From: Bacteroidota bacterium
GTDB lineage: Bacteria > Bacteroidota > Ignavibacteria > Ignavibacteriales > Ignavibacteriaceae
Length of the DNA: 64,000 nucleotides
Reading direction: 5' to 3'
NCBI GenBank assembly: GCA_020161395.1
Contig: JAIUOE010000015.1
Location: forward strand, 1 to 64,000
Shown: positions 5,054 to 7,087 of the stretch, piece after piece
Position numbering within the stretch: position 1 is the first letter of the stretch
Layout of the letters: each line of letters begins with the position of its first letter
Position numbers and translations under genes: made by a program
Notes under the pieces: model-generated
Seen by the model: the letters and a program-made list of their open reading frames with translations, nothing else
What the model was told of the DNA's origin: nothing
Database searches by the model: none

Positions 5054-5129
5054 ACAGGACCTCAAAAAGAAAAAAGAAAAAAGGAGATTTTGGGAACCCG
5101 TATTTCGATTCCTGTGTTTATATTTTATA

Positions 5130-5234
5130 ATGATAAAAGAATTTTACCCCATTCATCCTGAAGCACTTACCGGTGTCTTCACCCGTTCCGCCTGCAACTG
5201 TTGTTGCTGTCTCTGTTGTTGTTGCGGCTGCTAA
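5130..5234 (+). CDS. Cysteine-rich leader peptide upstream of cysE-cysK
   Basis: A 34-codon ORF with ten Cys codons among its last thirteen: Cys at positions 22, 24-27, 29-32 and 34, ending CNCCCCLCCCCGC. It sits between a good promoter and cysE, the first enzyme of cysteine synthesis, 77 nt upstream of the cysE ATG. Leader peptides rich in the end-product amino acid are the hallmark of attenuation, and poly-Cys upstream ORFs before sulfur-assimilation genes are known from mycobacteria. I infer ribosome stalling at Cys codons when Cys-tRNA is scarce. ATG at 5130 is the only ATG/GTG/TTG start in frame. No Shine-Dalgarno is adjacent, which weakens but does not exclude translation. A metal-binding microprotein is the alternative. 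Confidence 0.75.
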   Translation: MIKEFYPIHPEALTGVFTRSACNCCCCLCCCCGC

Positions 5235-5311
5235 GCCACAACGGCACCATCTCCCATTTAAAATAAAAAATTCTACAATAAATTGCCTTCAAGGCATATA
5301 TCGAGCAACAA
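5199..5311 (+). promoter_or_regulatory. Candidate cysteine attenuator RNA between leader peptide and cysE
   Basis: One hairpin pairs 5214-5229 with 5234-5249 (two mismatches, two G-U pairs, loop GCTA) and covers the last Cys codons and the stop. The Cys-codon repeats also complement the cysE start region: TTGTTGCT at 5201-5208 pairs with AGCAACAA at 5304-5311, directly before the ATG, and TTGTTGC at 5219-5225 is a second 7-nt match. A small hairpin sits at 5284-5296. There is no T-run after the main hairpin, so translational or Rho-dependent control fits better than an intrinsic terminator. Confidence 0.5.
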
Positions 5312-6154
5312 ATGAACAAAGCGATTCGAGAGTTTGCCTCTCAAGTGATAAAAAAATATGAAGATCATCAATGCATGCTGCCGCTTAAGGATGAGAGCAG
5401 AAAATTCATTGACAAATTTTTAAAGCTGGCTTTCCCCCAATACTCCGAAAAATCATTCGAGAAAATTGAGGAGATAGAATCGGCTGCCATACTTTTGATG
5501 TATGATTTAAAGAAGCTTGTCGGGTCAGTGATTGAAGATAAAAGGGAGGTCGATCAGACCGTCGATCAGTTTGCATCGGAGCTGCCCCAAATCATAAGAA
5601 AACTGGACAAGGATGCAGAAGCCATATTTAACGGTGATCCTGCTGCAAAAAATCAGGATGAGGTCATTCTGGCGTATCCCGGCTTTTTTGCCATTACTAT
5701 CTACAGGCTGTCCCACGAACTTTACCTTTTGGGCGTGCCTGTAATTCCGAGAATACTTTCCGAGTATGCACACGAGAGGTCGGGAATAGACATTCATCCG
5801 GGTGCCGAGATAGGAGAGTCATTCTGCATCGATCACGGTACCGGAATTGTAATCGGTGAGACTACTGTAATTGGCTCCCGTGTCAAAATTTATCAAGGTG
5901 TTACACTTGGTGCTGTCAGTGTTGATAAATCACTCGCAAGCCAAAAGAGGCATCCGACCATAGAGGACGATGTAATTATCTATGCGCAGGCGGTAATTCT
6001 TGGCGGAGAAACTGTTATTGGCAGAAACAGTGTTGTGGGTGGTAACGCATGGGTTACTGAGAGCGTCCCGCCTGATTCTGTCGTTCTTCACAAAAGTGAA
6101 GTAAGACTTAAATATAACGGGAAGCACGATCCCGTTCTTGATTTTGTAATTTAA
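5312..6154 (+). CDS. cysE: Serine O-acetyltransferase
   Basis: Makes O-acetylserine from serine and acetyl-CoA, the committed step of cysteine synthesis. The N-terminal 140 residues are helical, as in other long SATs. A left-handed beta helix follows (about 155-270) with hexapeptide repeats such as IGETTVIGSRVKIYQGVTLG. The catalytic pair equivalent to E. coli Asp143/His158 appears as D160 in GIDIHPGA and H175 in CIDHGTG. At 280 residues it is of normal length. It is 21 nt upstream of cysK and lies behind the Cys-rich leader, so its expression is probably linked to the cysteine supply. Confidence 0.95.
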   Translation: MNKAIREFASQVIKKYEDHQCMLPLKDESRKFIDKFLKLAFPQYSEKSFEKIEEIESAAILLMYDLKKLVGSVIEDKREVDQTVDQFASELPQIIRKLDKDAEAIFNGDPAAKNQDEVILAYPGFFAITIYRLSHELYLLGVPVIPRILSEYAHERSGIDIHPGAEIGESFCIDHGTGIVIGETTVIGSRVKIYQGVTLGAVSVDKSLASQKRHPTIEDDVIIYAQAVILGGETVIGRNSVVGGNAWVTESVPPDSVVLHKSEVRLKYNGKHDPVLDFVI

Positions 6155-6175
6155 CTGTAAATAATGGAGAATAAA

Positions 6176-7087
6176 ATGAGATATAATAATATTCTTGAGA
6201 CAATTGGCAACACACCTCATGTAAAACTGAATAAATTATTCGGAAGTGATCATGAAGTCTGGATAAAACTTGAAAAAGCGAATCCAGGCGGCAGCATCAA
6301 AGACAGAATTGCTCTTGCAATGATAGAGAATGCAGAAAAAAGGAGATTCCTGAAAAAGGGAAGTGTAATAATTGAGCCCACTTCGGGAAACACGGGAATC
6401 GGACTCGCAATGGTAGCTACAGTAAAAGGTTACGAACTTGTGCTGGTCATGCCAGAATCGATGTCGATTGAGAGAAGAAAAATCATGTCGGCTTATGGTG
6501 CAAAATTTGAACTAACTCCCAGAGAGAAGGGGATGACGGGTGCAATCGAGAAAGCGAAAGAACTCGTAGCTGCCAATCCAAATGCATGGATGCCACAGCA
6601 ATTTGAAAATGAAGCAAACAGCGAAATTCACAGAAAAACCACTGCCCTCGAGATACTGAATGATTTTCCGGAAGGATTGGATTACATAATCACAGGAGTG
6701 GGAACGGGAGGTCACATAACAGGCGTAGCTGAAATACTGAAAGAGAAATACCCGAATCTCAGGGTATATGCAGTTGAACCCGAACTTTCACCCGTTCTTT
6801 CAGGCGGGAAACCATCACCTCACCCGCTTCAGGGAATTGGTGCCGGATTTGTACCTGCTATCCTTAATTTCCCGATTCTTGATGGAGTTATTCAGGTCGG
6901 TAAAGATGAAGCGTACACATTTGCCCAACGCTCCGCCTCAGAGGAGGGGCTCTTTATTGGTGTCTCCTCCGGTGCTTCACTGGCAGCGGTTGCGAAAAAA
7001 CTTCCCGAAATTCCTGCCGGCTCGAAAATCCTGACATTCAACTATGATACAGGTGAAAGATACCTTTCGATTGAAGGACTTTTTTAG
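6176..7087 (+). CDS. cysK: Cysteine synthase A (O-acetylserine sulfhydrylase)
   Basis: PLP enzyme converting O-acetylserine plus sulfide to cysteine. The PLP lysine is K42 in PGGSIKDR. The substrate loop TSGNTG is at about 69-74, the phosphate-binding loop GVGTGGH is near residue 175, and the C-terminal SSGAS motif is present. An upstream in-frame ATG exists at 6164. I chose 6176 because GGAG (6166-6169) lies 6 nt before it and the protein then starts in register with the family ([14 protein letters not shown]), 303 residues. It is the second gene of the leader-cysE-cysK operon. Confidence 0.96.

Follow-up and report, generated by a model that had tools for sequence, protein, structure and literature searches.

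A poly-cysteine leader ORF upstream of cysE-cysK in the Ignavibacteriales as the probable sensor of a ribosome-mediated cysteine attenuator

In the window analysed here, a stretch of 64,000 nucleotides from a genome of the Ignavibacteriaceae, a short ORF with a run of Cys codons lies directly upstream of the two genes whose pathway makes cysteine, which is the arrangement expected of an amino-acid attenuator. We consider it very probable that cysE-cysK is controlled by a ribosome-mediated cysteine attenuator which has this leader ORF as its sensor. An earlier note on this DNA had already proposed an amino-acid attenuator, and the sensing half of the proposal is supported by the retention of the Cys codons, by the recurrence of such leaders and by the anatomy of eight relatives. 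However, the window copy has no classic terminator, and hence the output half is what we infer rather than what the leader itself displays.

The existence of the leader ORF is confirmed, with ten Cys among its final thirteen codons as the earlier note had read it. Outside the leader ORF, no stop-free run of 13 codons in any of the six frames of the window holds more than 5 Cys; when the whole window was dinucleotide-shuffled 60 times, the maximum was 6. The two genes behind it, which had been named as cysteine-making ones, are identified as such by NCBIfam and Pfam (Table 1): the cysE product scores 160.4 bits with NF041874, the EpsC serine O-acetyltransferase model (cut-off 150), and 168.3 bits with the cysE equivalog model TIGR01172, which is under its cut-off of 210.65, while the cysK product scores 406.8 bits with TIGR01139 (cut-off 350.95). 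The leader stop is separated from cysE by 77 nt and cysE from cysK by 9 nt. The leader peptide matches no NCBIfam or Pfam family at E<=0.1, and the Rfam 15 covariance models give no match at E<=1 between 4950 and 5450 of the window; over 14 loci, one tRNA was their sole match. The 12-mer TGYTGYTGYTGY has 44 sites genome-wide, two of them inside the leader ORF. A regulon of poly-Cys leaders within this genome was considered on that basis and rejected, for no convincing second gene leader was judged present in the surroundings of the other 42 sites. At one of them, a possible exception (L071, G000:C1:579817-579828, minus strand), an intergenic 13-residue frame, GVKNCCCCHCCGV, adjoins an apparent tRNA gene.

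Table 1. Features of the leader region and of the genes behind it (positions in the window)
Feature	Position	Strand	Remarks
Possible -7 promoter element, TATATTTT	5119..5126	+	5/6 to Bacteroidota TAnnTTTG, 11 nt before leader ATG; weak alone
Leader ORF	5130..5234	+	34 codons plus stop, encodes MIKEFYPIHPEALTGVFTRSACNCCCCLCCCCGC*
Proposed sensing block	5193..5231	+	Final 13 codons, 10 of them Cys; kept in G003 and G002 amid drift
C-rich, G-poor spacer behind leader stop	5235..5291	+	Candidate Rho-loading stretch, from its composition
Short hairpin, TGCCTTCAAGGCA	5284..5296	+	Before cysE start; hairpins of different sequence near this position in G003 and G002
cysE, serine O-acetyltransferase	5312..6154	+	NCBIfam and Pfam matches
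cysK, cysteine synthase	6164..7087	+	NCBIfam and Pfam matches

The leader is present in three of the four genomes of the window's genus, and the comparison among them separates the Cys codons from the rest of the ORF. Between the window (G000) and G003, whose CysE proteins are 99% identical, the N-terminal part of the leader agrees at 7 of 23 residues and the CCCCLCCCC block at 9 of 9; for G002, whose CysE is 80% identical to that of the window, the figures are 1 of 23 and 8 of 9. The G002 leader has no ATG, and TTG would serve as its start. The check that the earlier note had suggested, whether Cys codons are conserved while the remainder drifts, therefore comes out positive in both comparisons, and together with the order-wide count given below this is the behaviour expected of the regulatory codons of an amino-acid attenuator. 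In the congener G001 (L006, L191) no Cys leader was found upstream of cysE; its cysE lies in a 392-codon frame and matches in two pieces, as if holding an insertion. The hairpins near the cysE start are unlike in the three congeners (window, L002 and L003: TGCCTTCAAGGCA, TGCCCTTTTGGGCG and GTCCGATCCGGAC), and the fold energies of the three spacers are not unusual (z of -1.03, 0.28 and -0.34).

We searched 164 genomes of the order (Ignavibacteriales) and obtained cysE at E<=1e-40 in 74 genomes at 75 places, 74 of which were examined, the excluded one being a fragment in G047. A leader was assigned to class A, the poly-Cys leaders, if it had at least 3 Cys among its final 14 codons with two of them adjacent, and to class B if it ended in CxC with a common motif. 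By these rules 29 loci belong to class A, 14 to class B and 31 to neither; among the last is L187, one of 15 hits of the class B rule, which was moved there because the rest of the motif is missing. The 29 class A loci compare with a mean of 0.8 and a maximum of 3 in 60 rounds of shuffling, with 1 on the reverse strand and with none in either of two control regions, inside cysE and further upstream. The same count for other residues (nine residues for the shuffles, all 20 for the reverse strand) stays near its controls, with the exception of Leu: it reaches 49 upstream of cysE, where shuffles give 37.1 (maximum 46) and the reverse strand gives 38. Leaders of either class are distributed patchily at cysE: they occur at 39 of 42 loci in family f2 and at 4 of 27 in the window's own family (f1), so that 23 of the latter lack one as congener G001 does, and at none of the 5 loci of f3. 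With 29 of 74 loci at cysE and 7 further cases at cysK, the search for Cys-rich ORFs 30-200 nt upstream of either gene in relatives, also proposed in the earlier note, is positive. Apart from this, three loci (L021, L022 and L212) have in common, about 100 nt upstream of cysE, the stretch MKVGAAHFCL(H/N)AYNSL..; it contains one Cys in L021 and L212, and L022 retains it apart from the ATG.

The 7 cases at cysK are found among the 13 loci of genus g4, a member of the window's family without a leader at cysE. Each of these poly-Cys leaders lies in the gap from cysE to cysK and has a terminator behind it, with energies ranging from -13.8 to -15.7 kcal/mol. At L011 a poly-Cys leader with a terminator (-16.7 kcal/mol) stands before cysE itself. 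In these eight loci the leader tail can pair with the 5' arm of the terminator, and out of 500 shuffled tails the number pairing as well was 41 for L023, 3 for L024, 73 for L206, 5 for L213, 19 for L214, 0 for L215, 2 for L217 and 0 for L011; that is, six of the eight Ignavibacteria loci were matched by at most 19 shuffles. The pairing segment UGGAAG is kept in four loci although it is read in different frames, as AUG GAA GAC in L024 and L214 and as UGG AAG in L215 and L217, suggesting selection at the RNA level. The minimum-energy folds of all seven cysK leaders, tail included, choose the terminator and never the antiterminator, so a switch in the terminator-type leaders would have to be kinetic. 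For four leaders from elsewhere in the Bacteroidota, pairing of the tail with the terminator 5' arm was not significant (400, 131, 500 and 59 of 500). The terminator with competing antiterminator that characterizes a trp-type attenuator is hence found at L011 and at the seven cysK loci, and is not found at the window.

The class B leaders, located upstream of cysE at 14 loci (L007, L010, L028, L029, L184, L224, L227, L228, L229, L231, L232, L233, L235 and L236) in 11 genera, end in [G]Y[FLIY]x[TAS]C[ILVM]C-stop. While the Cys at -3 and -1 is imposed by the search rule, the Tyr at -7 lies outside it and is shared by 14 of the 15 rule hits, including all 14 kept loci; Gly at -8 and Thr at -4 are each found in 12 of the 14, and residues from -9 backwards are little conserved. 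In 48 of 91 pairs the two Tyr codons are synonymous but not identical. This conservation of residues, with synonymous drift in the Tyr codon, looks like selection on the peptide, and it suggests that the nascent chain helps the ribosome to stall, which would make class B a candidate cysteine-linked arrest peptide. Both classes are present in genus g39 (L030 in A, L010 in B).

Beyond the order, the poly-Cys leaders found in the phylum are scattered cases. The 10 best of 80 named cysE loci (L091-L100) belong, or seem to belong, to the Ignavibacteria. Of the remaining 70, which include two with almost no upstream sequence (L112, L120), 9 fit the class A rule; we judge six of these convincing (L105, L115, L123 of Labilibaculum manganireducens, L126, L139 of Runella, and L154) and three doubtful (L103, L106, L107). 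Terminators are visible by eye at L115, L126, L139 and L154, and the computed folds contain them for L126, L139 and L154. A phylum sample of 392 genomes, 188 with cysE, provided 71 loci outside the order, of which 9 fit the class A rule; in our judgement L295 is the sole clear case, L286 and L287 are possible and six are doubtful. The short ORF MMLFVCNMCCMMWKNPQSI.. upstream of cysE in L286 and L287 is both Met- and Cys-rich and, from this composition, could sense both sulphur amino acids. In a set of 20 cysK loci, a poly-Cys leader precedes the gene at 7 (L319-L324 and L328), a proportion that is no unbiased rate since the 20 were hand-picked, mostly with cysK not tightly behind cysE. L320 falls within the window's family, L322 within f2 and the other five outside the order; terminators are seen by eye at L319, L320 and L322, and in the genome of L322 (G067) cysE and a cysK at another place each have a poly-Cys leader of their own.

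Regarding the start of the leader transcript, the earlier note had placed a consensus promoter before the ORF, and this was not confirmed: a sigma-70 scan gave no plus-strand site upstream of the leader ORF, and what was found is the single imperfect match at 5119-5126 to TAnnTTTG, the -7 consensus of the Bacteroidota. From the position of this element the transcript would start near the ATG. No second promoter box at proper spacing from it was seen, and the element is absent in the congeners G003 and G002 (best 4/6). Over 50 leaders, perfect TAnnTTTG elements within 60 nt upstream of the chosen leader start number 18, against 2.9 (maximum 7) in base shuffles. The promoter claim for the window leader is weak.

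As for the output at the window, no intrinsic terminator (hairpin plus U) was found between the leader and cysE, and a terminator-like site stronger than -5.7 kcal/mol is absent at 42 of the 43 cysE leaders, L011 being the exception. What the spacers have instead is a composition rich in C and poor in G, the one expected of a Rho attenuator that has no intrinsic terminator, and the window is such a case. The C and G fractions are 0.174 and 0.050 behind class A leaders (C above G in 27 of 29) and 0.203 and 0.066 behind class B leaders (14 of 14), compared with 0.132 and 0.132 upstream of cysE at loci with no leader. Expressed as C minus G per base, the values are 0.128 for 28 of the 29 class A leaders (L011 was omitted because of its terminator), 0.137 for the 14 of class B and -0.006 for the 31 loci without a leader, and -0.008 at the seven cysK leaders with a terminator. 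The bias of terminator-less leaders (n=42) over loci with no leader (n=31) has p=2e-9, and p=8e-6 by genus means (19 against 15). Within the window, cysE ranks fourth of 52 genes in C-over-G skew over the 160 nt upstream and is not unique there. Because the C-rich, G-poor spacer distinguishes the terminator-less leaders and Rho is encoded in the genome, Rho-dependent attenuation is favoured. On the other hand, the spacer, with 77 nt at the window and mostly 50-61 nt in f2, offers little room for a full Rho site, and YC dinucleotides in the 42 spacers number 203 against 194.7 expected, which is no enrichment beyond composition, though such enrichment is not a strict Rho requirement; the Rho step is thus about an even bet.

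The working of the attenuator could then be as follows. With ample Cys-tRNA the ribosome would clear the Cys block and exit at the stop codon, and cysE-cysK expression would be cut off; under cysteine shortage it would stall within the final 13 codons, and expression would continue. At the window, a stalled ribosome may shield the C-rich, G-poor spacer from Rho, whereas once the ribosome is gone Rho would load and end transcription before or early in cysE; for this sub-mechanism we would put the chances for and against as equal. In the terminator-bearing relatives, stalling would instead let the leader tail pair with the terminator 5' arm. A single cysteine gauge with exchangeable outputs might thereby serve the phylum, with intrinsic termination in some lineages, Rho-gated termination in others including the window, and an arrest-like GY..TCIC-stop peptide, whose nascent chain aids the stall, in 11 genera; this broader view is offered tentatively, as less likely than not.

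Translational attenuation like that in mycobacteria would place the output elsewhere, in that the poly-Cys RNA or the sequence just 3' of it pairs with the cysE start and a stalled ribosome breaks the pairing. This is the model for mycobacteria, and at the window UUGUUGC in the Cys block is indeed complementary to GCAACAA just before the cysE ATG. We nevertheless regard it as unlikely in view of the cost of opening the cysE start, computed with the leader free or masked and set against shuffled leaders: over the 43 leaders the mean z is -0.44 for the 29 of class A and 0.06 for the 14 of class B, one locus of the 43 falls in the top 2 of 30 shuffle ranks, and the window itself, at 3.0 against 2.8 kcal/mol, ranks 10 of 30, its congeners 30 and 25. 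Complementarity between the spacer and the cysE Shine-Dalgarno sequence, seen by eye at L008, L012, L014 and L015, was likewise unsupported by the shuffle test and is put down to pyrimidine-purine chance. That ribosomes leaving the leader stop reach the cysE start through an unstructured spacer, so that leader translation raises cysE translation, would suit the short, G-poor and nearly constant spacer in f2; such re-initiation is nonetheless improbable, since, with Cys codons in the leader, a lack of cysteine would then reduce cysE output, the opposite of what a biosynthetic gene needs.

The leader might also be read as a small Cys-rich protein with a role of its own, for instance in metal binding, which Cys clusters are able to do, its position before cysE being incidental. 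We give this very little credence: the N-terminal part is not kept even where CysE is 99% identical, the number and spacing of Cys vary, the leaders recur before cysE and cysK, and a terminator follows in eight relatives. A chance ORF, such as a functionless TGY repeat, can draw on the many copies of the 12-mer TGYTGYTGYTGY in these genomes, most of which lie antisense to genes or outside their reading frame; in the face of the shuffle controls and of the recurrence at both cysE and cysK, however, we regard it as already refuted. We thus retain the leader ORF as the probable sensor of a cysteine attenuator.

If so, the leaders suggest how a large bacterial group may sense cysteine, and cysteine attenuation would be carried from the Actinobacteria to the Ignavibacteria and other Bacteroidota. 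Moreover, close relatives that carry this sensor, some with a terminator and some with none, make a natural experiment, in which the swap between intrinsic and Rho-dependent output is directly testable. The polycysteine leaderless short ORFs of mycobacteria were reportedly found to be cysteine-responsive in 2020 (Canestrari, cited in PMC13236596). A 2005 study predicted terminator-less Cys-run leaders in Actinobacteria, weakly suggested Rho and mentioned tnaC (PMC1262725), and mycobacterial Cys-run leaders were noted in 2015 (PMC4633059). For the Bacteroidota, one paper mentions attenuation by leader peptides ahead of amino-acid operons of Flavobacterium psychrophilum, cysteine being unnamed in the text examined (PMC9723704), and short ORFs within long 5' regions are mentioned for Bacteroides thetaiotaomicron (PMC7366714); by word search, cysK and Bacteroidetes do not occur in the main text of a 2010 attenuator survey (PMC2965389). 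The earlier note held that poly-Cys upstream ORFs were described in mycobacteria and knew of none established in the Ignavibacteria or Bacteroidota, and our literature search, covering few subscription journals, agrees, with no recognised cysteine leader paper for either group among the matches listed.

Compared with known systems, the window resembles the mycobacterial polycysteine ORFs in having a short ORF that precedes cysteine genes and has a run of Cys codons towards its end, with the ribosome as the sensor, which for the window is proposed. The mycobacterial system differs in belonging to another phylum and in its RBS sequestration, which the shuffle test does not support here; regarding its leaderless start, the window has the possible -7 element 11 nt before the ATG, which would put the transcript start near the ATG. 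In addition, some relatives of the window use intrinsic terminators, unlike that system. The Actinobacteria leaders of PMC1262725 are like the window in that the run is close to the stop codon without a terminator, while their pyrimidine motifs were not conserved and here a C-over-G bias separates terminator-less leaders from controls. The leaders at the seven cysK loci and at L011 are like trp-type attenuators in possessing a terminator and a tail pairable with its 5' arm, from which the window copy, having no terminator, departs. The tnaC leader of E. coli is Rho-dependent and senses free tryptophan. The likeness to it is that a ribosome halted close to the end of the leader would keep Rho from loading on the RNA immediately behind, and the difference is that the window leader would sense missing charged tRNA rather than a free amino acid, with the action of Rho a proposed one here.
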